DNA of 37,017 nucleotides from Cyanobacteria bacterium REEB459 (GTDB lineage Bacteria > Cyanobacteriota > Cyanobacteriia > Phormidesmidales > Phormidesmidaceae), in assembly GCA_018970085.1 (NCBI GenBank), contig JAGWXD010000031.1, forward strand, positions 1-37,017, read 5' to 3'. Under the pieces are notes generated by a model, which was given only the letters and a program-made list of their open reading frames with translations, was not told the DNA's origin and made no database searches. Shown piece after piece: positions 1 to 19,711 of this stretch (position 1 is its first letter; each line of letters starts with the position of its first letter). Both the position numbers and the translations under genes were made by a program.

Positions 1-407
1 CCAGTCAGGCCTATACCCCCGGCTATGACTACCTCAAGGCCAAGGTAATCGCCACCCACCTCAGCCCCGATGACCAGGTGCAGGGGTGCCTACTGGCCCC
101 GGTGGTGGATCGGGCCAAACGCGATCGCCTGATGGCCACCCTCGACCACCTCAACCGTCGCCTCCGCCCCGATGCGGTGAAATTTGGTGCCCTGGGCCTC
201 AACCCCACCTGGACCCCCCGAGCTAACTACGCCTCCCAGCGTTACACCACCCACTGGCAGGAACTACCCACAGTGACGCCCTGGCGATCGCCGGAAACAC
301 CGCTCACTCCACAGCCCTTGGGTCAAACTATAGACATATCCCCCTCAGGACATCCGCCCTGCCACCCACCACCATGGACCCCATCGCCTATACCGCCCAG
401 ATCGTAG
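1..407 (+). CDS. umuC: UmuC-like Y-family DNA polymerase, C-terminal part (5' end outside window)
   Basis: Only the 3' end is present; the open frame runs from base 3 without a start. The peptide is the C-terminal domain (DUF4113) found at the end of UmuC, the catalytic subunit of translesion polymerase V. Diagnostic pieces are YDYLKAKVIATHLSPDDQVQG, the basic stretch DRAKRDRLMATLDHLNRR, and SQRYTTHWQELPTV, which matches the family ending SxRYTTrWdELP. The polymerase catalytic domains lie upstream of the window. A Pro-rich tail of about 25 residues follows the usual domain end, so the true end may be slightly abnormal. Its last 34 bases overlap the next gene. umuD would be expected upstream and cannot be seen. 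SOS control is usual for the family but no operator is visible here. Confidence 0.85.
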   Translation, partial: SQAYTPGYDYLKAKVIATHLSPDDQVQGCLLAPVVDRAKRDRLMATLDHLNRRLRPDAVKFGALGLNPTWTPRANYASQRYTTHWQELPTVTPWRSPETPLTPQPLGQTIDISPSGHPPCHPPPWTPSPIPPRS

Positions 408-1243
408 CTGCCAAGCGAGCGATCGAGCAGACCCTACCCCAGCCCCTGGGCCAGGACCCCTACGCTCTGACCCTGGCTGGCCATGAAGTTGATCACCTAC
501 TGGCCAAATGGCAACGGGTAGCCGATCAACAGGGGCGATCGCTCCAGGACGTGATCCTCAAACGCACCCGTTACATTGCCATCCGCACCTACTTTTTTGA
601 TCACCTGCTCACCACCACCCTGCCCCGACTGTCTAACCCCCAAGTGGTGATCCTGGGCTCAGGCTTGGACACCAGGGCCTACCGACTAGCCTGGCCCCCC
701 TCAACCCACTGCTATGAGGTGGACCTACCCACGGTATTAGACTACAAAACCAATCTTCTCCAGCCGCTTACCCCCACCTGCTACCACCACCTAATTGCCG
801 GGGACCTAGACCAGCCCCAGGGCGGATGGATCCGAAGACTACGGGCTGATGGATTATCCCCTCATATCCCCACCGTTTGGATTCTGGAAGGTGTCCTCAT
901 GTACCTACCGGAAGCCAGCGTCCACTCCCTGCTCAGAACCGTCACAGCCCTCAGCAGCCCCGGCAGTGTTCTGGGAATAGATGGAGTCTCCCAGGGATCC
1001 ATCCTGGCCGCCCAGCATGCCCAGAAATTAGACCGAGGCCGGGTGGTACGCCATTGGCAATTTGGCTGTAATCAGCCTCAGGAACTACTGGCCCGCTACG
1101 GTTGGAGCAGCGAAGTCAACCAACCCCAGGACATCGGCAAAGCCCATGGTAAATACCCAGAGGCCCTCCCCATCACCGCCGAGGTGGGGGGAGACCAGCC
1201 CAACCGAGGTGTCTGGTTGGTAAAGGCCAGAAAGACCCGGTAA
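374..1243 (+). CDS. Class I SAM-dependent methyltransferase, leucine carboxyl methyltransferase-like (TIGR00027/PF04072 type)
   Basis: This 289-aa protein looks like the bacterial branch of the leucine-carboxyl-methyltransferase family. The early region has KRTRYIAIRTYFFDHLL, matching the RTRFIDD-type segment. SAM-binding motif I follows at about residues 92-105 (VVILGSGLDTRAYRL), then the acidic strand YEVDLPTVLDYK. A later motif, WILEGVLMYLPEASVHSLL (about residues 170-190), is typical of the family. The ATG at 374 lies inside the end of the upstream umuC frame, a 34-base overlap, so the two are probably co-transcribed. The substrate is unknown: relatives act on small-molecule or peptide carboxyl or hydroxyl groups and are often annotated only as putative methyltransferases. 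No signal peptide or membrane segment is seen. Confidence 0.88.
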   Translation: MDPIAYTAQIVAAKRAIEQTLPQPLGQDPYALTLAGHEVDHLLAKWQRVADQQGRSLQDVILKRTRYIAIRTYFFDHLLTTTLPRLSNPQVVILGSGLDTRAYRLAWPPSTHCYEVDLPTVLDYKTNLLQPLTPTCYHHLIAGDLDQPQGGWIRRLRADGLSPHIPTVWILEGVLMYLPEASVHSLLRTVTALSSPGSVLGIDGVSQGSILAAQHAQKLDRGRVVRHWQFGCNQPQELLARYGWSSEVNQPQDIGKAHGKYPEALPITAEVGGDQPNRGVWLVKARKTR

Positions 1244-1301
1244 CTTTCGCCTGAACATCCTCAATTCACTCCGGCCAAAGTGCCAGAACCAGGTTATAGC
1301 T

Positions 1302-1318
1302 CTAGACATCGAGTCTAG
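1302..1318 (+). promoter_or_regulatory. Small hairpin overlapping the ribosome-binding site of the next gene
   Basis: CTAGAC (1302-1307) pairs with GTCTAG (1313-1318) around a 5-base loop. The right arm runs into AGGAG (1317-1321), placed 8 bases before the GTG at 1330. The spacing supports GTG 1330 over ATG 1336 as the start and raises the possibility that the hairpin partly hides the ribosome-binding site. Confidence 0.35.
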
Positions 1319-1329
1319 GAGATGTAGGG

Positions 1330-1860
1330 GTGGCTATGATGGCTCTATCTGTCTTGCTGCCTATCCAAATGGTGTTTCCCCCACGCTATCTGCTCCTTGG
1401 TATTTTCCTGGTCTTCTACACATTGCCCATTGTCTATGGGCTAATGAACCACCATTCCCTGATGGTCATTGTGCCAGCCCTGGGAATAGCAGCACTGCTG
1501 TTTGGCCTATGGTTTGGATCCAGGCTTATCAACCAGGTTTTGCTGCAGGAGAGCGACACTGCCACCCTGACAGCATCAGAAAGATGGGTGGTGCTGGTGA
1601 CCGAGTTCCTAAACCCCCTGGTGGTCGGAGCCTTTTACTACCACAGATGGAAGAAGAAGTTTCCGAACAAAGCTACCCAGGCAGGAAACTATGGCATGGG
1701 TATATTTCTATTCCAGATTTTTGCATTTTTCTTTATCGATAGTATCTGGAGGGAAGGTTACGCGTTCCTTTGGCATATGCTGCTAGGGGGAGTTCTGACA
1801 GTTTTATTCCGATATTTGACAATTTTGCTTCGGAAAATACTTCAGGAAATTTGGCGGTAA
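1330..1860 (+). CDS. Hypothetical membrane protein (176 aa)
   Basis: I do not recognise this family. The protein is strongly hydrophobic. Likely membrane segments are at about residues 15-35, 42-62, 125-142 and 145-165, separated by a basic loop containing YYHRWKKKFPNK that probably faces the cytoplasm. The GTG at 1330 is preferred because AGGAG sits 8 bases upstream; an in-frame ATG at 1336 is the alternative. It lies about 86 bases after the methyltransferase gene on the same strand, and a stem-loop follows it directly, so it ends its transcription unit. Base composition is somewhat AT-richer near its end than in the neighbouring housekeeping genes. No function is proposed. Confidence 0.7.
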   Translation: MAMMALSVLLPIQMVFPPRYLLLGIFLVFYTLPIVYGLMNHHSLMVIVPALGIAALLFGLWFGSRLINQVLLQESDTATLTASERWVVLVTEFLNPLVVGAFYYHRWKKKFPNKATQAGNYGMGIFLFQIFAFFFIDSIWREGYAFLWHMLLGGVLTVLFRYLTILLRKILQEIWR

Positions 1861-1870
1861 TCATCAGCCA

Positions 1871-1894
1871 CCAGGGCAATTGTTAGTGCCCTGG
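1871..1894 (+). terminator. Stem-loop terminator after the 176-aa membrane protein gene
   Basis: CCAGGGCA (1871-1878) and TGCCCTGG (1887-1894) form a perfect 8-bp stem with an 8-base loop. A T-rich stretch (TTTTCTTTTC) follows within about 10 bases. It starts 10 bases after the stop codon. Confidence 0.65.
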
Positions 1895-2047
1895 ATGGGG
1901 GCGTTTTCTTTTCTGAAAGCGTTTTGATGCTTGGCTAGAACCCCTGGGTACCCATTCCCTGTCCTACTGTCCACAATTGAGGACACAGTGATAGCTGCCA
2001 ACCCGCGATCGCGGTTCCCTCCGGCCCCCTTAATACCGATTTCCTGG

Positions 2048-2080
2048 GGAATGCGATCGCTACCCCAGAGATCGCATTCC
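2048..2080. repeat. 11-bp perfect inverted repeat containing HIP1 sequence
   Basis: GGAATGCGATC (2048-2058) and GATCGCATTCC (2070-2080) are exact reverse complements separated by 11 bases. The left arm runs into a full GCGATCGC octamer. It lies in non-coding DNA, so it may fold in RNA or be a remnant repeat. Confidence 0.6.
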
Positions 2081-2179
2081 TTACTTCGCCCCAGCCTGGG
2101 ATCCTCCTGGCCACTTATTCTCTGTCCCCAGAACAGACTACCCCTGCCTTGGGTGGCCCTACCTGATAAAAACTTAGAT

Positions 2180-2205
2180 GTACCCATTTGTCCCCAAATA
2201 GGTAC
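2180..2205. repeat. 11-bp inverted repeat with one mismatch, 4-base loop
   Basis: GTACCCATTTG (2180-2190) and CAAATAGGTAC (2195-2205) pair over 11 positions with one C/A mismatch around TCCC. It could be a protein-binding site or the end of a lost element. No gene is adjacent. Confidence 0.5.
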
Positions 2206-2449
2206 TAAAATAACTCTAGCCATTCTTAGGTTTTCTTTCCTAAGCACCGGTCCAACTTTTTGCTAGAACCCTTGATCTATAAGCTTTTGGGCCGCAGATA
2301 ATTGGATCAACATAGCTCAAGGATATAGTGGCTCCCAAATTCCTAAATATTAAGAACGCTTAAGAAAGTGTACTTGGTAGTGTCCGAATAGTTTGTTTTC
2401 GACCTTTTTTCTCACCTATAGCTTAAGCAAACAATGCCCATTATTTATT

Positions 2450-2524
2450 GGTACAAAACTGGTACATACAAATAGTACACAAGCCAGGAAAACCTTTAAT
2501 AGCAAGACTTTTATGATAGTACAC
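2450..2524. repeat. Four GTAC-type short direct repeats beside a tRNA fragment
   Basis: GGTACA occurs at 2450-2455 and 2461-2466, and AGTACAC at 2474-2480 and 2518-2524, all on the same strand. The cluster directly precedes the tRNA-Pro 3' half. Such arrays next to a tRNA end resemble the arm-type sites bound by tyrosine recombinases, but no integrase gene is visible in the window. Confidence 0.4.
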
Positions 2525-2526
2525 TG

Positions 2527-2573
2527 TCACTTTGGGGTAGTGGGGGTCGTGGGTTCAAATCCCGCCGCTCCGA
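2527..2573 (+). pseudogene. 3' half of tRNA-Pro(GGG); 5' half lost or replaced
   Basis: An anticodon arm can be drawn: stem 2527-2531 with 2539-2543, loop 2532-2538, anticodon GGG at 2534-2536. A five-base variable loop (2544-2548) follows, then a canonical T arm (GTGGG, loop TTCAAAT, CCCGC; 2549-2565), the acceptor strand CGCTCCG (2566-2572) and discriminator A2573. CCA is not encoded. Acceptor strand and anticodon match tRNA-Pro. No complementary CGGAGCG and no convincing D arm precede it; 2499-2526 only vaguely resembles them. It is either a decayed gene or the 3' copy left by an element that integrated into a tRNA-Pro gene. Confidence 0.6.
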
Positions 2574-2579
2574 TAGGCT

Positions 2580-2605
2580 GAAACCTCCCAGTAATGGGGG
2601 GTTTC
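2580..2605 (+). terminator. Stem-loop following the tRNA-Pro fragment
   Basis: GAAACCTCCC (2580-2589) pairs with GGGGGGTTTC (2596-2605), ten pairs with one T-G wobble and a six-base loop. It starts seven bases after the tRNA discriminator base, where a tRNA terminator is expected. No clean T tract follows. Confidence 0.5.
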
Positions 2606-2853
2606 ACTGTTTCAGGGGATAGGAGTTATGGCCCTACTGGGTACGGGCTAACCCGATATTTAACGAGAGCATCAGGGTTTTGGCGATAGAATTGGTACGT
2701 ATAGGCTGACCGGAGCAGGAACCTGCCACCACCAGGGAATCACCGAAACAAGAGAGTTGCCAGTGGGCTACGGAAAAATGCCTTAGCGAACCGTTGAAGA
2801 TTGCATACCTGACTAATCGGCCTGGCAACACCAAATGACATCCGATTAAATAA

Positions 2854-2879
2854 CCCCTGACGCAAATGAGCGCCAGGGG
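2854..2879. repeat. 10-bp stem-loop with one mismatch in non-coding DNA
   Basis: CCCCTGACGC (2854-2863) pairs with GCGCCAGGGG (2870-2879) apart from one A/C mismatch, with a 6-base loop. No gene is next to it. Confidence 0.4.
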
Positions 2880-3215
2880 CTGGTTTAGTTATAGGGAGAT
2901 TACAAATAAGAGGCTTTAGAGGAGCTAACAAGATCATCTTCCCCCCATTACCCCTGCCGCGATAGGGATCTGACCCCAGATTTACCGGATGTTAACAAAA
3001 GTTGCTCCTATGCAAACATTTGATGTTTTGTGGCCAAAGATTGCGGATGATTGCAAATTCCTTAATACCCTAGAGCCCTTCCCCGACATGGCCGATCCGA
3101 CTTCCCCAGATCGGCTATGGGAGGAGCGATCTCCGCAGGTGCGACCGGCATTATCTAGATCGTAGGGACAATCACAGCGGCCCCGTTAGGGCTCTCGAAT
3201 CGGTACTGGAGTGAC

Positions 3216-3232
3216 GGGGGCAGCTAGCCCCC
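3216..3232. repeat. Short GC-rich stem-loop
   Basis: GGGGGC (3216-3221) and GCCCCC (3227-3232) form a perfect 6-bp stem around a 5-base loop. It stands alone in non-coding DNA. Confidence 0.4.
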
Positions 3233-3435
3233 ATCAACCTGTCAAAGCCTGAAAATCAGTTATCCCCAGACCAGCAAAGTCGTTAAGATTTGAGGATGAT
3301 AGATGAAAAAACGGATTCTAATCGTTAGATTAGAGCCGCTCCCTATCCAGTTTGCTGACGCTAGTTTAGCTAGACCCTCAAATAGATGGCTGGGATTCGA
3401 GGCTAATTCAGCCCCTATCCATGACCCCGGCAGGC

Positions 3436-3528
3436 TTAGGTCTGGCCGTCTCCCTGGCGATCTCGGGCGGGGTAGATGACCAGGTCGTCAGCCTTCACTT
3501 CATGGACAAAGTAAAAGAGGTAAGCGTC
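3436..3528 (-). pseudogene. Fragment resembling the N-terminal domain of an Mrr-type restriction protein
   Basis: The minus strand reads a 30-residue stretch containing FYFVHEVKADDLVIYPARDR, bounded by stops on both sides. It resembles the segment FVhEmkvGDLVvyPsk.DR near the N terminus of restriction-system proteins with an Mrr-like nuclease domain. No nuclease domain or start codon is present, so this can only be a remnant. The match rests on one motif recalled from the family. Confidence 0.38.
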
Positions 3529-3588
3529 CTAGGAAATTTTAAAGAAGATTTAGGGATTTTGGGCCAGAAATCTGGATAGCTTGAATTC

Positions 3589-3672
3589 ATGAGCGACGAG
3601 ATTGAGGTAGCTGGCATTAAAGTCCCAAGAGCAGATTGGGAGGTGACCCCCTGGTTGACTGACAAGACTTAG
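3589..3672 (+). pseudogene. N-terminal remnant of an IS66-type transposase
   Basis: An ATG at 3589 opens a 27-codon frame containing GIKVPRADWEVTPWL and ending in TAG. IS66-type transposases often begin with a similar segment (P.aDWE.TP.SV), followed by a coiled coil and then NSxNSSxPPSSD. Nothing after the stop continues the similarity, so only the beginning survives. Confidence 0.38.
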
Positions 3673-3980
3673 CCAGAAGTATCCTGGTAGGTGTGTATTT
3701 TTAACTCAATTCGATAGATGCGTTCACTATGTCGCTTTTGAGATGCCATCGCCGGTTGAGTGTGCTTGGCGTGAGTAGAACAAACTGAGTCAATCAGGAG
3801 TAGTTATAGTAAATGCCAGGAGTTAAGTTAATCTCAGTCCTTGAGATCAATCCTACAGATAACGTGGCCGATCTTCGAGGGCAATGATGTGATCTTCGTC
3901 ATTCCTAAGTCAACAATTGGCAATCCGATCAACCGCCATCTGGCCTCACCTCCCTAAAGCTAGACACGCAAAGCCAAGCG

Positions 3981-4018
3981 AGATCGGGGCCTGCCGCCAC
4001 GGCGGCAGGCCCCGATCT
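3981..4018. repeat. Perfect 18-bp GC-rich inverted repeat
   Basis: AGATCGGGGCCTGCCGCC (3981-3998) is exactly reverse-complemented at 4001-4018, with two bases between the arms. The arms would form a very stable hairpin in either transcript. There is no T tract and no gene immediately upstream on either strand. Confidence 0.8.
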
Positions 4019-4078
4019 GGGTAACATCGCCATTCCCCCGGCAAAAGACATAACGATAGAGTAGTCAGTGGCCAGTAA

Positions 4079-4213
4079 TCAGCGGTGCATCAGGCCGTTG
4101 CCCTGGAACTGGCTGCGATTAGCTTCGAAGATGTTCGTCACTGGTTCGCCCATTACTACTACCCCATTGCTACCACTGTGATTGATTCACCTGCACACTG
4201 CTATAGCGGTTAG
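4079..4213 (+). pseudogene. C-terminal remnant of an IS630-type transposase
   Basis: The frame reads ALELAAISFEDVRHWFAHYYY before a TAG at 4211-4213. Cyanobacterial IS630-type transposases commonly end with ...aI...D...WF.HCgY, which this resembles with the cysteine lost. A stop (TAA at 4076) directly precedes the fragment, and the DDE catalytic part is absent. Confidence 0.42.
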
Positions 4214-4300
4214 CTTGCCCTATTCCAGGGCGATCGCCGGTGACTAATCCCTGCCAATTCCTATAGCTGACTCCATTCTCCATTGAACTCAGCCCAGCGA

Positions 4301-6961
4301 TTAAGGGAGGAGACGGCGGCGGTAGGGATGGCGGTAGAGTTCGTAGGCCGCCAGCAAGGCTACCCCCACCAATAGGGGGGTGAGATAGTAAATCACCCGG
4401 TACATCAGTAACGCCCCTAGCAGGGCATCGGAGCCCAGGGGTGGAGAAACCAGCAGGATCAGCACTGTTTCAAACACTCCCAGCCCCCCGGGCACATTAC
4501 TGAGTACCCCGGCTATTTCAGCCAACAGGTAGCTACTAAAAAAAGCCAGATAGGGCACACCGGCATCCGCTGGTAGCAACACATAGAGAATGGCGGCGGC
4601 CAGGGCCCAGTCGCAGGAGGTCACTCCAATTTGAGCCAAAGAAAGCCTCAGGGGTAAGCGGGGGATACTCCACCCGCCAATGTTGAGGGAACGGCGACTC
4701 CAACTGCTGAGGCCCAAGTAGGTGGCAATCACCACCAGAAAAATCATGCCAAGGGGATAGACCGTATCAAAGGGGAGGTGGAGCATGGCAGGAATCTTCA
4801 GGGGTTCCAGGGCAAACACCAAGCCCCCCACCGCCAGCAGACCTATCCAAAAGCTCAGGTTGCAAAAGGCAATAATTTGGGCAATCTGTCCAGGGCTGAG
4901 GCCCCAGGCAGCATAGAAGCGGTAGCGAATAGCGCTGCCGCTGAGCAGGGCAAACCCTACACTATTACTGATGGCATAGCTAATGGTGGCCACCAGAGCG
5001 GTTTTCAAGTAGGGCAGCCGATGGCGGACAAAAAAACGAGCCAGGACGTCGTAGCCGCTTAAAAATAGATAGTTGAGGCCGGTCAAACCTAGGGCCAGCA
5101 TTAGGGTAGGGCGAGGAATAGCCCGGATATGGTTAATAATCACCTGGGGCTGGTATTTGTGCAGTTCATGGATAATTGCCCAGATGCAGAGGCTAAACAG
5201 TCCCAGGCTGAGGAGGGCTGGCAGCAGCCGAGAGCAGGCTTTGACCCAGCCAGACAGGGCGTTACTAAAAAATTGGGCTCCCAGGTACTCCTGCAGGAGA
5301 TCGCCGGAATCAATCCGCACCAGGGCAATGATAATATCTGGCAAGCTCACCCGGTGGGAATAAACCAGGTAACGGGGCTGCCAGTGGGGCTGGAACTTTT
5401 CCTTATAGGCCCGTAGACCCTGAAAATTATAGAGTTGGTTGAGATGGTTATAGAGATAGCGAATGCCCCTTTGTAACCGGGAGGGATGGGTTGTGCCCAC
5501 CAGATCACTCAGGGCCACCAGTCCCAAATTAAAATTATCATAGCCTTGCTGCTGGCAGTATTGCAGCAGCGATACCAGCAGGTAATCCATGGTGCCTGGT
5601 AAGGCCTCATGGTGGTAACGCATCAGGTCAATGGTGGCCTCGTTTAGCTGGTATTCAGAAATCAGGTTGGCAAAGGCCAGCGCCTTGCCCTGGCTATCTT
5701 CGACCACTGCAATTACCGAGGTTTCTAAGTAGTCAGGGTCAAACCAACCCAGGGAAAATCTTTTTTCTACCCCCTGGCGGCGATAGCGCAGCCAGTCATC
5801 GCTGACGGCCCTCAACTCGGCCAGCAGAGCTTCCCCCAGGGGGGGCTGGTAGACCTGCACCCGGTAACCCTGGCCTAGACATTTATTAACCGCTGAACGC
5901 AGACTGCGACCGGCTCTGCCCTTAAGGGTAAACCGGTGTAAATCAATGATCGCTTCCTCACCAATTTTCAGCAGGCGAAAGCCCAGGGCTTCATATAGGT
6001 CTAGGTGTTCGGCCAGGGTTTGATAGAAGGCAGGATGCCAATCATTAAGTTGGCAAAAATCCCTAAAACCGACAACGGCCGCTGTCAGGTCCGCTGGCGG
6101 ACCGATGGGATCCCCCAGGGCGATCGCCCCCCGGCCCCTGGCAATATAGGCAACCACCGTTTGGCCAGAGGGGCTAAAGTAGTAAGACTTATCCTCCAGC
6201 AGGGTGATGCGGGCCAGAGAAGAGTGGCCGTATTGTTCAACAATCGCCCGGGCTCGCTGCCGCTCAGCCGGGCTGGCGGTTTCCCGTAAAATTACTGGCC
6301 GAAATAGCATCCACAGGCCGTAGCCGAGGGTGCCTGCCCCCACCCCGTAAATCGACCGGGCAAAATAGGCTCCAAAGGCGGTGGTGGGTCGCAGGCCCCC
6401 ATTATCAGCGGTGAAAAACATAGCCAGGGTCTGACTCAGGGCCCCAGGCAAGCTGAAGGGAGTGGCGTAATGGTAGTCTAGCCACCAGAATCCCAGGGTG
6501 CCGTAGGCCAGGGTAAACACCAGAGCCCCCAGCAATACCCTGACCCCTTGAATGATCGAGGGGCGATCGGACCAGGCTACAAAGGCGGGCCTTAACCACA
6601 GTAGCAACCCCAGCAAAGCCAGACAGAGTAAACTCTGCTGGTAGTGCAGTCCCCGAATCAGGTGGCTAAGGCCCGATAAACTCAGCAGGCCAACGGTTAA
6701 CCACCAGGCTACGCGTTTGCGCCGCCCCAGATTAGTTGCCAGGCTGAGCAAAAAAAAACCACTCAGGGCTGAAAACAGACGGGCCCCCACCCTGACCGGC
6801 ATTGGCCATAGAGATAGAAACCAGGACTCAGGCCCTGGTGAACTGGGGATAATAGCTGAACAGAGATTGACCAGGGCCACGATCGCCGTCAGCACCACAG
6901 CAATACCCAGGCCCAGGGAACTGAGTCTCGAGTCTGACCTTGCTGGCGCACCACTGACCAC
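4301..6961 (-). CDS. mprF: MprF-like bifunctional aminoacyl-phosphatidylglycerol synthase/flippase, domains in permuted order
   Basis: MprF proteins transfer an amino acid, often lysine, from tRNA to phosphatidylglycerol and flip the product across the membrane. Both halves are present in 886 aa, but in reverse order. Residues 15-222 hold about six membrane segments. Residues 235-545 are the soluble DUF2156 synthase domain (GDPIGPPADL at 283-292, HPAFYQTL, YEALGFRLLKIGEEAIIDL, and FNLGLVALSDLVG near 477-489). Residues 575-880 are a flippase (LPG_synthase_TM/UPF0104) domain with SGYDVLARFF, GSAIRYRFYAAWGLS (675-689) and SNVPGGLGVFE (821-831). In well-studied MprF the flippase comes first and the synthase last. 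The gene stands alone between the decayed island and small genes. The transferred amino acid cannot be told from sequence. Confidence 0.85.
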   Translation of the reverse strand: MVSGAPARSDSRLSSLGLGIAVVLTAIVALVNLCSAIIPSSPGPESWFLSLWPMPVRVGARLFSALSGFFLLSLATNLGRRKRVAWWLTVGLLSLSGLSHLIRGLHYQQSLLCLALLGLLLWLRPAFVAWSDRPSIIQGVRVLLGALVFTLAYGTLGFWWLDYHYATPFSLPGALSQTLAMFFTADNGGLRPTTAFGAYFARSIYGVGAGTLGYGLWMLFRPVILRETASPAERQRARAIVEQYGHSSLARITLLEDKSYYFSPSGQTVVAYIARGRGAIALGDPIGPPADLTAAVVGFRDFCQLNDWHPAFYQTLAEHLDLYEALGFRLLKIGEEAIIDLHRFTLKGRAGRSLRSAVNKCLGQGYRVQVYQPPLGEALLAELRAVSDDWLRYRRQGVEKRFSLGWFDPDYLETSVIAVVEDSQGKALAFANLISEYQLNEATIDLMRYHHEALPGTMDYLLVSLLQYCQQQGYDNFNLGLVALSDLVGTTHPSRLQRGIRYLYNHLNQLYNFQGLRAYKEKFQPHWQPRYLVYSHRVSLPDIIIALVRIDSGDLLQEYLGAQFFSNALSGWVKACSRLLPALLSLGLFSLCIWAIIHELHKYQPQVIINHIRAIPRPTLMLALGLTGLNYLFLSGYDVLARFFVRHRLPYLKTALVATISYAISNSVGFALLSGSAIRYRFYAAWGLSPGQIAQIIAFCNLSFWIGLLAVGGLVFALEPLKIPAMLHLPFDTVYPLGMIFLVVIATYLGLSSWSRRSLNIGGWSIPRLPLRLSLAQIGVTSCDWALAAAILYVLLPADAGVPYLAFFSSYLLAEIAGVLSNVPGGLGVFETVLILLVSPPLGSDALLGALLMYRVIYYLTPLLVGVALLAAYELYRHPYRRRLLP

Positions 6962-7766: not shown

Positions 7767-10469
7767 ATGACGCAACGAAGCTTAACGGTTTTCTTGCCCA
7801 TGGCTGCTTCTTCCCCTGTTGACGCCTCTGCCTCCCTGCCCGATCGCCTGGTTAAACAAACCATTCGTTATGCCGACCATGGTTCGGTAGACCGGGCCGA
7901 TCTGACTCCGATGATGCAGCACTATGTGGAGATTAAGGACCAGTATCCCCATGCTCTGGTGCTTTATCGAGTGGGGGATTTCTTTGAGACCTTTTTTGAA
8001 GATGCCATTACCATCGCTCGAGAACTGGAGCTGGTGCTGACCGGCAAGGAAGCTGGTAAGCAGGTGGGGCGAGTGCCCCTGGCGGGTATTCCTCACCATG
8101 CTCTGGATCGCTACTGTACGCTGCTGGTGGAAAAAGGCCTGGCGATCGCCATCTGTGACCAGGTAGAAGACCCAGCGACGGCCCAGGGGTTGGTTAAGCG
8201 AGAGGTAACCCGGGTGATTACCCCTGGCACGGTGCTGGAAGAGGGCATGCTCAGCGCCAGGCAGAATAACTTTTTGGCCTCGGTGGTGGTGGCCGGAAAG
8301 CACTGGGGTCTGGCCTACGCCGATGTTTCCACTGGCGAGTTTCTCACCACCCAGGGAGACAACCCCGATCACCTCAGCCAGGAACTGCTGCGCCTGCAGC
8401 CAGCTGAAGTGTTGTTTCCCACAGAAGCGGCGAATTTGGGGGCGATGATTCGCCCTGGCGAGGTGTGTGACCACCTGCCGGGCTGTTTACCGCCCCAGTT
8501 TTGCTATACCCTCAGGCCCCAGGGCGGCTACAGCCAGCCAGAGGCGCGGCAGCGATTGCTGCAGCGGTTCCGGCTGCGATCGCTAGAGGGGCTGGGCTGC
8601 GAACAACTACCCCTGGCGGTGCGAGCGGCGGGGGGGCTGCTGGCCTACCTGGAAGACACCCAGAAGACGGTACAAGCCCCGCTTCAACCCCTGACCACCT
8701 ATACCCTATCGGCCTACCTGGTGATCGACCATCAGAGCCGCCGTAACCTGGAGATTACCCAAACCGCCCGGGATGGCACCTATGCTGGCTCCCTGCTGTG
8801 GGCCCTGGACCGCACCGTCACCGCCATGGGAGGGCGCAGTCTGCGCCGCTGGCTGCTCCAACCCCTGTTGCAGGTGGGGGCGATTCAGGCCCGCCAGGCC
8901 ACTATTCAAGAACTGGTGCAGCAGGGCAGCCTGCGGCAGACCCTGCAGCAACGGCTGAAGCAAATCTACGATCTAGAGCGGCTGGCGGGGCGGGCCGGTT
9001 CGGGTACAGCCAATGCCCGCGATCTGGTGGCCCTGGCTGACTCCTGCCTGCGCCTGCCAGAGCTGGCGGCCCTCACCGCTACCGCCCAGTCTCCCTATTT
9101 AGTGGCGTTGCAGGAGGTTCACCCAGAACTGGAGCAGTTGGGCCAGACCCTGCGATCACATCTGGTGGAAAACCCGCCCCTATACCTGACCGAGGGCCAT
9201 CTGATTCGAGATGGGGTAAACCCCGACCTTGATCACCTGCGCCAGCAAGCTTTAGATGACCAGCGCTGGATTGCCCAATTGGAACCCAGGGAGCGCGATC
9301 GCACCGGTATTGCCACCCTTAAGGTGGGGTTTAATAAAGCCTTTGGCTACTACATCAGCATTTCCCGGGCCCGGGCTGACCAGGCCCCCGCCGACTACAT
9401 TCGCAAACAAACCCTGACCAACGAGGAGCGCTACATTACCCCCGACCTGAAGGAACGGGAGGCCCGCCTGTTTACCCTGGAGGCCGAAACCCACGCCCTG
9501 GAATACGAAATCTTTAACCGCCTGCGGGAACAAGTAGGGGCCCAGGCCGAGGTAATTCGCCAGGTGGCCCGAGCCGTAGCCGCCGCCGATGTTCTGTGCG
9601 GCCTAGCGGAGGTGGCTCTGTTGCAAGGCTACTGTTGTCCCCTGGTGGACGATTCTCGCACCCTTGCGGTGGTAGAAGGGCGTCATCCGGTGGTAGAGCA
9701 ACGATTGCCCAGTGGGTTCTTTGTGCCCAATTCTACCTACCTGGGAACCACTGCCCTCGATCGCCCCACTCCCCAGGCCCAGGATTTAATTATTCTCACC
9801 GGTCCCAACGCCAGCGGTAAAAGCTGTTACCTGCGCCAGGTGGGGTTAATTCAACTGATGGCTCAGGTGGGTAGTTTTGTGCCTGCCCGGTCCGCCCATT
9901 TGGGGGTTTGCGATCGCATCTTTACCCGGGTAGGCGCAGTGGATGATCTGGCCACCGGGCAATCCACCTTCATGGTAGAAATGAACGAAACCGCCAATAT
10001 TCTCAACCACGCTACCGGTCGTTCCCTGGTGCTGCTGGATGAAATTGGCCGCGGCACTGCCACCTTCGATGGTCTGGCCATTGCCTGGGCAGTGGCTGAG
10101 TACCTGGCCCAAACCCTTCAATCCCGCACTATTTTTGCTACCCATTATCACGAACTGAACCAACTCGAAACCCTGATTACCAATGTTGCCAACTACCAGG
10201 TGACGGTTAGGGAAATGTCCGATCAAATTATTTTTCTACACCAAGTCCAGCCCGGTGGAGCCGATAAGTCTTACGGCATCGAGGCCGGACGCCTGGCCGG
10301 TCTACCCCCAGTGGTGATTCAGCGAGCCCGCCAGGTGATGACCAACATTGAGGGGCACAGCGCCATTGCGGTCACCGTTGAGCCCCCCCCACCGGGGCGG
10401 CGTCGCCCAGATCGCAGTCAGGGTGCCCCCCAGGCGGAGCCCACCGACCAAATGAATCTGTTTGCCTGA
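7767..10469 (+). CDS. mutS: DNA mismatch repair protein MutS
   Basis: MutS binds mismatched DNA as a dimer and couples recognition to ATP hydrolysis. The mismatch-contacting F-x-E motif is intact (GDFFE; F72, E74). The connector, lever and clamp regions follow, then the ATPase: Walker A GPNASGKS at about residues 679-686, the [12 protein letters not shown] segment, Walker [15 protein letters not shown] (D758, E759) and the signature histidine region ATHYHEL. The length of 900 aa is normal for cyanobacterial MutS. The extreme N terminus is not conserved, so an ATG at 7800 is also possible. A low-complexity tail ([17 protein letters not shown]) precedes the ending QMNLF. It converges on holB with 10 bases between the stops. 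No mutL lies in the window. Confidence 0.97.
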
Positions 10470-13424: not shown

Positions 13425-13649
13425 CTACTGAAAGGACTCGAAAATCACAGCGCACCCCAGGGTAAAAAAGCTACCCAGGGCTAATCGCCACCACCAGTCC
13501 ACTACTACAGTGATCCAGGCCAGGGCTAGCAATGGCTGGGCAAAGAGGCTGGCTAGAAGAAAGCTAGCCATGAGGCCAACGGTGGTCAGAAAGAAGTACT
13601 TGATAAAACCACTGATGGATCGAAATAAAAGACTATGACGAGGTAACAT
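13425..13649 (-). CDS. Small membrane protein (74 aa)
   Basis: I cannot name the family. The sequence has a basic N terminus (MLPRHSLLFR), a first hydrophobic stretch at about residues 13-33 (SGFIKYFFLTTVGLMASFLL), a second at about 36-50, and a third short one near the end before the charged ending FESF. The tryptophan cluster VVDWWWRLALG lies at a probable membrane edge. It is separated from the Rieske gene by about 180 bases and diverges from dapL. Length and composition are like those of many conserved small cyanobacterial membrane proteins. Confidence 0.65.
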   Translation of the reverse strand: MLPRHSLLFRSISGFIKYFFLTTVGLMASFLLASLFAQPLLALAWITVVVDWWWRLALGSFFTLGCAVIFESFQ

Positions 13650-13835
13650 AGGCGATCTCTGGTTGAACAGCGGTAGGCATAGCCTATTTATAACGAACCT
13701 GAAGCCAGAGCCCTGCCCTGCAGAGGACCAGTTTGTGGGTTGGTCCCTGGGGAAGGACAGTTTCTAAGTTAATCAATAGGCCAGGATGCCCCCCGGGGCG
13801 GTAGGCTTGATTAAGCAATGTACCGGGCACGCTCC

Positions 13836-15059
13836 ATGGCTACCATCAACGACAACTACCTGAAACTCAAGGCGGGCTACCTATTTCCAGAAATTGCCCG
13901 GCGGGTAAACGCCTTTGCTGAGGCCAACCCCACCGCTGCCATCATCAAACTCGGGATTGGCGATGTCACCGAACCATTGCCCGCTGCCTGCCGGGCTGCC
14001 ATGGTGGCAGCGGTGGAGGATATGGGCGATCGCGATCGCTTCCGGGGGTATGGTCCAGAACAGGGGTATCTATGGCTGCGGGAGAAAATTGCCCAGCATG
14101 ATTTCCAGGCCCGGGGTTGCCAGATTGACCCCAGTGAGATCTTTATTTCCGATGGTTCGAAGTGCGACTGCGGCAACATTCTAGATATCTTTGGCAACAC
14201 CAACTCCATTGCCGTCACCGACCCGGTCTACCCGGTCTACGTTGACACCAACGTGATGGCGGGCCACACGGGCCCGGTCAACGACCGGGGGGAGTACGGT
14301 CAGCTGGTCTATCTGCCGATCCAGGCTGAGAACAACTTTACCGCCCGCATCCCTGACCAACCAGTGGATTTAATTTACCTCTGTTTTCCCAACAACCCCA
14401 CTGGTGCGGTCGCCAGCCGTGCCCACTTGCAAGCCTGGGTTAACTACGCCCGAGCCCACGGTTCGATTATTTTCTTTGATGCCGCCTACGAAGCTTTTAT
14501 TACCGACCCTGAGTTGCCCCACTCGATCTACGAAATTGAGGGGGCGCGCGACTGTGCGATTGAGTTTCGCTCCTTTTCTAAAAATGCCGGGTTTACCGGC
14601 ACCCGTTGCGCCTTTACCGTGGTCCCCCAATCTCTCCAGGGCAAAGCTGCCGACGGTAGCGCCGTCTCCATCCACAGCCTTTGGAATCGGCGACAATCAA
14701 CCAAATTTAATGGGGTTTCCTACATTGTTCAGCGGGGGGCAGAGGCGGTCTACTCTGCCGCCGGTCAGGAGCAAATCCAGGCCCTGATCAGCTTCTATAT
14801 GGAAAACGCCCGGATTATTCGCGAGCATCTCTCCGCCGCCGGTCTTCAGGTCTACGGGGGCGTCAATGCTCCCTACGTCTGGGTACGCACCCCCGATGGC
14901 ATCTCCAGTTGGGATTTCTTTGATAAACTACTGCACAACTGCCATGTGGTAGGCACCCCAGGTTCCGGGTTTGGCGCGGCCGGAGAGGGCTACTTTCGGA
15001 TCTCAGCCTTTAATAGTCGGCAAAACGTCCTCGAGGCCATGGCCCGGATTACCACCTAA
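13836..15059 (+). CDS. dapL: LL-diaminopimelate aminotransferase
   Basis: DapL converts tetrahydrodipicolinate directly to LL-diaminopimelate, the short route to lysine and peptidoglycan precursors used by cyanobacteria, plants and Chlamydia. The start ATG at 13836 gives [20 protein letters not shown], the usual beginning; an ATG six codons earlier is less likely. PLP-enzyme features are [37 protein letters not shown] and the lysine motif [15 protein letters not shown], with K249 as the probable Schiff-base residue. The later motif [17 protein letters not shown] supplies the carboxylate-binding arginine. The length of 407 aa is typical. The PPK2 gene starts 11 bases after the stop. Confidence 0.96.
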
Positions 15060-17493: not shown

Positions 17494-18291
17494 ATGGCAG
17501 TTACGGTACAGCAAGTTTTTCAGTGGAAGCAAACCGGCCAACCTACCCCAGCGATCGCTGTGCTGACCGCCTGGGATACCATGTCGGCCCACATTGTCGA
17601 TCAGGCTGGAGCCGATATTGTGCTGGTGGGGGATTCCCTGGCCATGGTAGCCCTGGGCTATGAAACAACCCTTCCCCTCACCCTGGAGGAAATGCTTAGC
17701 TCTGCCCGGGCGGTGCGGCGAGGGGTGAAAAATGCCCTGATGGTTGTAGATCTGCCCTTTCTTACCTATCAAATCAGCGTTGAAGAGGCGGTCCGCACCG
17801 CCGGCCGTATCTTTAAAGAAACCGGTGCCCAGGCGGTAAAGCTGGAGGGCGGCCACTCGGGAGTAATCGACATTATTCGCCATCTGCGCCAGTGGGATAT
17901 GCCGGTGATGGGCCATGTGGGCCTAACTCCCCAGTCAGTAAATCAACTGGGGGGGTTTCGACAACAGGGAAAGTCCCCAGCAGAGGCTGATCGAATTCTG
18001 GCGGAGGCCCTGGCTCTGCAAGAGGCAGGGGCTTTTGCAGTAGTTCTAGAGCATATTCCCGCCAGTCTGGCCGAGGCCATTAGTACGGCTCTGGCTATTC
18101 CTACCATTGGGATTGGGGCCGGCCCTGGGTGCGATGGGCAGGTGCTGGTGACCGCCGATGTATTAGGGCTGTCTACCTGGCAACCTCCTTTTGTGAGGGT
18201 GTACGCCCAGTTGCGAGAAACGGCGATCGCGGCAGCTCAGCAATTTTGTGACCAGGTACGCACCGGAGAGTTTCCTGGGGCCAACCCTTAG
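17494..18291 (+). CDS. panB: 3-methyl-2-oxobutanoate hydroxymethyltransferase
   Basis: PanB adds a hydroxymethyl group from methylene-tetrahydrofolate to alpha-ketoisovalerate, giving ketopantoate, the first committed step to pantothenate and coenzyme A. The TIM-barrel motifs are clear: [32 protein letters not shown] (metal-binding aspartate), [10 protein letters not shown] (second metal-binding aspartate), AVKLEGGH (substrate lysine and glutamate), [16 protein letters not shown] and [16 protein letters not shown]. The 265-aa length is standard. No panC is adjacent. A broken oxygenase gene lies just downstream on the other strand. Confidence 0.96.
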
Positions 18292-18664: not shown

Positions 18665-19711
18665 ATGCATAAAATTCCCGTTACGGTCATCACTGGCTTT
18701 CTGGGGTCAGGCAAAACCACCCTACTGCGCCATCTGCTTCAGAACCATCAGGGGCGACGGATTGCGGTGCTGGTGAATGAGTTTGGCGAGGTGGGCATTG
18801 ATGGAGAGTTGCTGCGATCGTGCCAGGTGTGCGATCTAGAGGAGGGGGCTGGCGATCCGATTAATATTGTCGAACTGGCCAACGGATGCCTTTGTTGTAC
18901 GGTGCAGGAGGAGTTTCTGCCCACCATGGAAGCCCTGCTGAAACGACGCCAGGATATTGACTGCATTTTGATTGAAACCTCTGGCCTGGCCCTGCCCAAA
19001 CCCCTGGTGCAGGCCTTTCGCTGGCCAGAAATTCGCAGTGGTGCCACCGTGGATGGGGTGGTAACGGTGGTGGATGGGGAAGCCCTGGCCCAGGGCGAGC
19101 TGGTGGGAAACCTGGAAGCCCTAGAGGCCCAGCGCCAGGCCGATGATAGTTTGGATCACGAGACCCCGATCGCAGAACTGTTCGAAGATCAGCTGGCCTG
19201 CGCCGATATGGTGCTGTTGACCAAGGTGGATACCCTCAGCCCCGATGGCCGAGATCGGGTACAGCAATGGCTACAGGATCGGGTTGCCGCCGGGGTACAG
19301 ATTCTACCCTGCCACCACGGCCAGGTGAGCCCCGATCTCTTGCTGGGGTTCAATGCCGCCGTTGAAGATGACCTCCACCATCGCCCCAGCCACCACGACC
19401 ACGAGGATGACCATGATCACGACGACCACATTACCTCGGTTTACCTGGAGTTAGACCAGACCTTTAACCCTGCGGATTTAGTGGAGCGCCTACGCACCCT
19501 GGTGCAACAGCACTCGATTTACCGCATTAAGGGCTTTGTAGCCGTCTCTGCCAAACCGATGCGGCTGGTGATCCAGGGGGTAGGGCAACGCTTTGACCAT
19601 TTCTACGATCGCCCCTGGGGCACCGATGAACCCCGCCAGACCCGGTTAGTGTTTATCGGCGAAGACCTGGATGGGGCCTCCCTGCGGTTATCTCTGGAGT
19701 CCCAGGGTTAG
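18665..19711 (+). CDS. cobW: CobW, COG0523 GTPase associated with cobalamin synthesis
   Basis: COG0523 proteins are G3E-family GTPases that load metals into targets. Visible are the P-loop GFLGSGKT (11-18), VNEFGEVGIDGELL, the metal-binding CLCC motif (C75, C77, C78), the switch region IETSGLALPKPLVQAF and the base-recognition motif LTKVD. The DPINIVELANGCLCC context, QADDSLDHETPIAELFEDQL and overall length match the CobW subgroup (TIGR02475), linked to cobalt insertion in B12 synthesis, rather than the YeiR or YjiA types. A histidine/aspartate-rich stretch, residues 238-255 (HHRPSHHDHEDDHDHDDH), probably binds metal. The C-terminal CobW_C domain follows. No cob genes are adjacent, and no B12 or zinc regulatory element is recognised in the 64-base upstream gap. 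Confidence 0.88.
   Translation: MHKIPVTVITGFLGSGKTTLLRHLLQNHQGRRIAVLVNEFGEVGIDGELLRSCQVCDLEEGAGDPINIVELANGCLCCTVQEEFLPTMEALLKRRQDIDCILIETSGLALPKPLVQAFRWPEIRSGATVDGVVTVVDGEALAQGELVGNLEALEAQRQADDSLDHETPIAELFEDQLACADMVLLTKVDTLSPDGRDRVQQWLQDRVAAGVQILPCHHGQVSPDLLLGFNAAVEDDLHHRPSHHDHEDDHDHDDHITSVYLELDQTFNPADLVERLRTLVQQHSIYRIKGFVAVSAKPMRLVIQGVGQRFDHFYDRPWGTDEPRQTRLVFIGEDLDGASLRLSLESQG

Follow-up and report, generated by a model that had tools for sequence, protein, structure and literature searches.

The window, the whole stretch of 37,017 nucleotides analysed here from Cyanobacteria bacterium REEB459, is contig C31 of a draft genome of 3.24 Mb in 102 contigs. Towards its left end lies a displaced 3' part of a tRNA-Pro(GGG) gene, preceded by paired short repeats and followed by decayed DNA that has a collinear counterpart on another contig of the assembly, C52. 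From position 4301 the window encodes proteins with LPG synthase, MutS, DNA polymerase III delta' and thymidylate kinase domains, and this part is read as chromosome. The features of the locus are as follows, A and B being two proposed mobile elements and DGR standing for diversity-generating retroelement.

1-2448, no strand assigned: presumed right end of element A, presumed from the arm pair only, with a DUF4113 fragment, an LCM methyltransferase and a 176-aa ORF
2449-2465, plus strand: paired arm-type site TGGTAC-AAAAC-TGGTAC at 11-bp spacing, 79 bp left of the core, presumed to belong to the right end of element A
2475-2478 and 2519-2522, plus strand: two further GTAC words in ATAGTACAC contexts, outside the 11-bp pair
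2528-2573, plus strand: displaced 3' part, positions 29-74 of tRNA-Pro(GGG), 100% identical to C52:9052-9097, with no tRNA called
2528-2543, plus strand: presumed attachment-site core, the anticodon stem-loop CACT-TTGGGGT-AGTG, where identity to the intact copy begins
2574-2702, plus strand: left end of relic B; its homologue, C52:9098-9227, lies between the tRNA and the integrase
2579-2606, plus strand: terminator-like hairpin (arms 2579-2590 and 2595-2606), 3' of the tRNA end and also present in C52
2693-2698, plus strand: TGGTAC, the one arm site remaining in relic B, 120 bp to the right of where the tRNA ends; the second site of the pair was lost at the deletion junction
2698-2702, plus strand: deletion junction, a jump from C52:9227 to C52:10978 (1.75 kb), where the BLAST blocks overlap
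2698-3494, plus strand: relic B blocks 2698-2783, 2833-3213 and 3245-3494, collinear with C52:10978-11063, 13456-13838 and 14585-14854
3105-3218, minus strand: 38-codon stub of an SNase-type nuclease gene in relic B, with 87% identity to its C52 counterpart (E 8e-19)
3418-3474, plus strand: stub in relic B of 19 codons that match the DGR-target gene of C52 close to its start (E 0.001)

The preliminary description had recognised a 3' half of tRNA-Pro(GGG) without its 5' part, and had placed it correctly: 2528-2573 corresponds to positions 29-74 of the tRNA-Pro(GGG) at C52:9024-9097, spans the anticodon arm to the discriminator, and is 100% identical to the intact gene from the anticodon stem onwards. 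The anticodon arm, T arm and following terminator-like hairpin that had been described are all present in the minimum-free-energy fold of 2525-2615, in which the hairpin occupies 2579-2606 (-40.5 kcal/mol, z -3.77); the centroid structure retains the hairpin and loses the anticodon arm. Similar 3' flanks, covering the hairpin region, occur in some relatives among the matches listed. A full-length tRNA at this position, which would have counted against the reading, was called neither by ARAGORN, which reported no tRNA in the window, nor by an Rfam scan of the window, which gave nothing at gathering score. A permissive Rfam scan of 1900-3300 returned four sub-threshold matches, the best of which by E-value was a T-arm-like stretch at 2548-2565 (tmRNA model, E 0.0063). 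The missing 28-nt 5' part was sought across the window, where its best match had 10 mismatches vs 11 for a reversed control.

When the genome was searched at the DNA level, the query matched twice, in the window itself and at C52:9052-9134 (99%). The latter sits within an intact tRNA-Pro(GGG) at C52:9024-9097, the only intact copy found in the draft genome, and disposes of the other case raised in advance against the reading, that the genome might hold no second tRNA-Pro(GGG). Starting 144 bases downstream of this tRNA is the full-length ORF, free of internal stops, of a 362-aa tyrosine integrase with Pfam domains PF00589 (1.5e-18) and Arm-DNA-bind_2 (7.5e-06), in which the Arg of TGCRTGE, the stretch RHTFISH and the Tyr of NYAG are motifs that we take to be catalytic. 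Searched against its own genome at E 0.001, the integrase matches itself alone. An intact target tRNA and a displaced fragment of it therefore coexist in one genome, with a tyrosine integrase adjoining the restored tRNA. It is exceedingly unlikely that the fragment is instead part of a working or split tRNA gene, whose 5' half would lie elsewhere or beyond an intron. In favour of such a gene, the 3' half carries no mutations; against it, the search of the window for a 5' half gave nothing beyond the chance level, the genome has an intact tRNA-Pro(GGG), and neither ARAGORN nor Rfam calls a tRNA at the fragment. Judged from its sequence, the broken proline tRNA is most likely the footprint of mobile elements that inserted into a working tRNA-Pro(GGG) gene.

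Repeats of one kind, which are putative arm sites, flank the core on both sides, at 2449 in the window and at C52:9218. The C52 counterpart, TGGTAC-GTATT-TGGTAC at 9218-9234, lies between tRNA and integrase, 121 bp right of the intact tRNA. The pattern TGGTAC-N5-TGGTAC occurs four times in the 3.24 Mb genome (on C9, C22, C31 and C52), with no occurrence of a reversed-pattern control, and two of the four pairs flank the two tRNA-Pro(GGG) copies. The earlier proposal that four GTAC repeats left of the fragment are arm sites thus stands for two of the words, those at 2451 and 2462, which form part of the pair, and not for those at 2475 and 2519, which lie outside it. The four are the tightest group among the 95 GTAC words of the window, but 291 of 5000 uniform placements match this cluster, and bare clustering was accordingly set aside as weak evidence and the spaced pair motif used instead. 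Two exact 6-mer repeats of period 11 occur in the 200 bases to the left of the core, a number reached by 42 of 2000 dinucleotide shuffles. We infer that the C52 integrase binds TGGTAC pairs. An inverted repeat around GTAC is also present left of the core (2364-2374 and 2518-2528, 11-nt arms, 91% complementary), possibly as a further protein-binding site.

To the right, the feature extends beyond the limits given in the preliminary description, to about 3494. The window is 92% identical to C52:9052-9227 over 2528-2702 and 74-90% identical to C52 in the relic B blocks, and 2528-3494 as a whole is collinear, with gaps, to C52:9052-14854. The DNA immediately right of the 3' half is thus the left end of an element (2574-3494, collinear with C52:9098-14854). 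Since the alignment jumps from C52:9227 to C52:10978, the integrase region is missing from relic B, and a search of window 1-4300 for an integrase remnant gave nothing significant (best E 0.67). The C52 counterpart of the nuclease stub matches Pfam SNase, and the DNA around the DGR-target stub matches C52:14585-14854. A second displaced 3' half, expected at the far end of B, was sought in the window and not found; this and the undetectable integrase are the reasons for naming the inner member a relic rather than an element.

These results divide the earlier proposal that the fragment is an attachment-site scar at the far end of an insertion: the attachment-site part holds, whereas a plain far end gives way to a junction between two elements, which fits better. 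A single island at tRNA-Pro(GGG) whose scar borders ordinary chromosome would explain the displaced 3' half, the intact tRNA with its integrase elsewhere and the arm pair on the left. It is nevertheless improbable, because what follows the fragment on the right is not chromosome: the next ~920 bp are collinear with the left end of the C52 element, of which they form a decayed copy that includes an arm site and the DGR-target stub.

On the left, no similarity to C52 was found, and the sequence differs from the left flank of the C52 tRNA, where an AraC-type gene is located. Window 1-2448 contains no gene that by itself would be proof of a mobile element. At 1-407 the contig starts within an open frame that encodes a DUF4113 domain, which is also found at the end of UmuC. 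The UmuC N-terminal domain (IMS, PF00817) was sought in the assembly at E 0.001 as a contig bridge and gave no match; the rest of the UmuC-like gene may therefore lie in an unassembled gap. A peptide-pattern scan of viral sequences gave no relatives of the LCM protein. C31 is not joined to C52 in the assembly, and its first 300 bases match elsewhere in short stretches only (best 29 bases, E 4.4e-4). A direct link between the two contigs, which are presumed to be physically joined, is missing because the assembly breaks there.

Taken with the comparisons below, the fragment is probably the inner junction of a former tandem, in the order tRNA, element A, 3' half and relic B, made by integrases that target tRNA-Pro(GGG). 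Element B would have entered the tRNA gene first, the 3' part that it brought making the gene whole again; element A, a relative of B that shares its arm specificity, would then have inserted at the restored tRNA and displaced B. The resulting order would begin with the intact tRNA, followed by A's left end and integrase (all on C52) and the rest of A, which is partly unassembled, and would continue with A's right end and its arm pair (to 2527), the 3' half (2528-2573), an eroded B without integrase (2574-3494) and chromosome from 4301. The N-terminal arm-binding domain of the integrase would bind paired TGGTAC on both arms, with strand exchange in the anticodon loop. The sequence of events, B and then A, and the exact crossover are given here as we infer them.

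Comparable layouts occur in other genomes. Some match to the tRNA query was obtained in 76 of the 76 genomes searched, own genome included; in five of them (G003, G005, G031, G034 and G045) the match was weak and is probably another tRNA. At least seven further 3' parts, starting at tRNA positions 27-33, are present in at least six genomes: G027 (two), G029, G037, G040, G048 and G069. One contig of G027 carries, in one orientation, an intact tRNA at 3113281 and 3' halves at 3098578 and 3037211, with an integrase relative beside each of the three tRNA sites, the farthest of which is partial (query residues 5-211). This contig is an array comparable to the tandem proposed here.

The agreement between the two flanks of an element was assessed in eight element pairs, hand-picked among the matches listed where a genome had an intact copy as well as a 3' half, the pairing of 3' halves to elements in G027 and G040 being the analyst's assignment. 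Right-flank and left-flank repeats match better within than across elements, and in a permutation over the eight pairs the observed sum is reached by 5 of 40,320 arrangements, counting the observed one. This result rests mainly on G029, G037 and G048, where identical stretches of 19-22 nt with 11-bp spacing are found at both element ends; the flank repeats of G000 and of both G027 elements match more weakly, and a clear shared pair is absent from two of the eight (G069 and G040_1). A single-genome arm score for G000 was also tried and rejected as evidence, its own value of 11 vs 13 against the left flank of G029 not being decisive.

The position of these repeats also bears on the possibility that element B integrated at a secondary, non-tRNA site, where its attP would have brought the 3' half and the left flank would be plain chromosome. 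Such an attP would likewise give a 3' half followed by the left end of the element, and the left flank of the fragment is indeed unlike that of the C52 tRNA. The arm pair at -79 is, however, close to the -67 to -83 at which matching repeats lie left of other 3' halves, and would be unexpected in a chromosomal half-site, which makes this explanation quite improbable.

Relatives of the integrase were found at E 1e-20 in 51 of the 76 genomes. At 24 of 30 examined integrase loci ARAGORN called an intact tRNA within about 320 bp of the integrase, the kinds being Pro-GGG, Val-GAC, Ala-CGC, Pro-CGG, Gly-CCC, Arg-CCG and Thr, and two of the remaining six (L128 and L129) adjoin tRNA-Pro(GGG) 3' halves. 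In G029, G037 and G048 the integrase gene is oriented toward the tRNA, rather than away. The closest integrases after that of G021, those of G002, G012, G007 and G001 (L122-L125), are 65-69% identical to the C52 integrase and belong to the same family, but lie beside tRNA-Val(GAC), a target different from Pro(GGG). A reading of arm pairs, which covered the plus-strand integrases of G001 and G012, found the pair GGGTAC-N5-GGGTAC before the integrase start in G012 (L123) and G001 (L125). This suggests that arm sites may follow the integrase while the target tRNA can change.

The comparison of the locus in related genomes that the preliminary description had called for was run, and yielded no empty site from the loci examined. 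Twenty-two non-integrase proteins of the window and C52 were sought at E 1e-8 in 49 tRNA-Pro(GGG) or 3'-half loci, of which 20 were regions of 9-20 kb and 29 were shorter loci of 1.6-3.1 kb, with some genomes represented more than once, and none was found. A scan for the LPG synthase of the window gave six loci, of which five are cyanobacterial (one in a Leptolyngbyaceae assembly, 67%) and one is from Thermomicrobium, the nearest relatives being at most 68% identical. An empty site could thus not be shown.

Viral sequences carry the same kind of fragment. A search of IMG/VR with the last 23 bases of the tRNA gave 42 stretches, and in 38 of the 42 viral contigs with this tRNA end only the 3' part is present by BLAST, a count that includes L187, where ARAGORN called a 72-nt tRNA. 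The 3' parts in these 38 start at tRNA positions 26-46, 35 of them at 26-35, and the crossover point would probably fall within the anticodon loop. Four of the 42, which match from tRNA position 1, and then 9 of the 38 as near-duplicates were set aside, leaving 29. The same period-11 6-mer is found on both sides of the 3' part in 6 of the 29 non-redundant viral contigs (L153, L158, L159, L169, L180 and L181) vs 7 of 812 cross pairings, and these six probably carry attP sites. The exact two-sided pair is absent from 23 of the 29, and from 20 under a looser rule. Period 12 gave 2 of 29 (3 of 812 in cross pairings) and the other periods from 7 to 16 none; the looser rule gave 9 of 29 for period 11 (cross rate 0.014) and 3 of 29 for period 12 (cross rate 0.011). 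In L159, L169 and L180 the left and right pairs lie at -78 and +106, which is near the -79 and +121 of this genome. A relative of the C52 integrase is present in only 6 of the 42 viral stretches, and a peptide-pattern search for viral relatives of this integrase gave none.

The Planktothrix phage PaV-LD (HQ683709) encodes an integrase, PaVLD_ORF018R, that shares 43% identity with the C52 integrase. Its genome contains, at 3772-3816 (L192) and thus about 120 bp upstream of the integrase gene as annotated, a tRNA-Pro(GGG)-like 3' half corresponding to positions 30-74 (84%), which on sequence grounds is likely the attP of the phage. The record's feature table has no entry for 3772-3816. PaV-LD, as a free phage genome, resembles the present locus in having a 3' half from the anticodon stem, then a hairpin (by eye) and then the integrase. 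It differs in its right-hand repeat GATTAGAC, an octamer present in three copies at 10-bp spacing, and in that no 11-bp pair was found in the 200 bases left of the 3' half. The integrases of the Leptolyngbya phages Lsp-JY17 and Lbo402-yong5 are 29% identical; Lsp-JY17 has a tRNA-Gly annotated beside its integrase. In a plasmid collection, the integrases among the ten matches listed are at most 33% identical to that of C52. In a literature search, none of the titles or abstract openings listed gave tRNA-Pro(GGG) as a target of cyanophages or cyanobacterial islands, which is a statement about titles and abstract openings and makes no claim on the print record.

The recurrence of 3' parts that start near the same place in other genomes and viral contigs also argues against an origin by segmental duplication of the C52 tRNA region, or by an assembly artefact, with later decay. 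Such an origin could account for similarity to C52 that is collinear over several kilobases, but the match begins at the anticodon stem, the DNA to its left is unlike that of C52 and has its own arm pair, and the copies diverge by 8-25%, arguing against a recent or assembly duplication; we regard it as very improbable. A former tandem of elements A and B is the reading retained in what follows.

The cargo of the C52 element is a diversity-generating retroelement with RT, Avd and a TR/VR pair with adenine-specific differences, located at C52 14727-19545 (L033), downstream of the integrase at tRNA-Pro(GGG). Between the TR (19416-19545) and the VR (17549-17678) of C52, 19 of 22 differences are at a template A. 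By Pfam, the genes of the element include SNase, a 984-aa protein with NCH4, HEAT and FGE domains, bAvd and RT (PF00078), and further genes are repressor-, methyltransferase- and Sak4-like. Among 10 C52-side proteins, PHROGs gave matches for the integrase, the repressor-like protein, the methyltransferase and the Sak4-like protein (the last second to an unknown family) and no virion gene; the rest of the element is unassembled, and it may be a prophage or an island. In the available text of PMC10907252, similar DGR targets are proposed as antigen sensors. Like the DGRs described in that text, the C52 element has Avd, RT, TR/VR and a target that combines NCH4 (NACHT C-terminal helical) with FGE domains; unlike them, so far as the same text describes them, its DGR lies downstream of an integrase at a tRNA gene, and Pfam gave no match to a NACHT core domain. 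PADLOC models gave no match to the 984-aa DGR target.

The explanation given here is an already known kind of event at an unusually readable site. The available text of the Islander study (PMC4383910) describes an intact tDNA and a displaced 3' fragment as marking the ends of an island, an anticodon-centred class of sites with 2083 islands, and tandem arrays. A table of 3919 islands there includes 125 tandems with at least two members, and each member of a tandem is required to have an integrase and a displaced fragment. The present locus resembles these islands in its intact tDNA and displaced 3' fragment, its presumed anticodon-centred site and its proposed tandem configuration. It differs from the tandems in that text (PMC4383910) in that the tandem would extend across two contigs and the inner member has neither an integrase of its own nor its own fragment. 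What is apparently added here are the legible arm pairs, the relic of a second element, a target apparently shared with cyanophages, and the DGR cargo.

It is an unlikely though conceivable extension that elements carrying DGR-diversified putative antigen sensors (NCH4/FGE) share the apparent tRNA-Pro(GGG) anticodon-loop site of PaV-LD-type cyanophages and pile up there in tandem, that their occupation of the site may counter prophages, and that the site may be a loading dock for adaptive-looking defence genes. If the tandem reading is true, the target-gene stub in relic B would imply DGR-target cargo in no fewer than two successive elements, and the site would be a legible record of repeated integration at one cyanobacterial tRNA gene. 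If the sharing of the 11-bp pair between element ends holds, it could serve to link such ends across contigs and help to predict cyanophage attP sites. In the C52 element itself, the integrase beside the tRNA gene is followed downstream by a DGR whose target is a putative antigen sensor.
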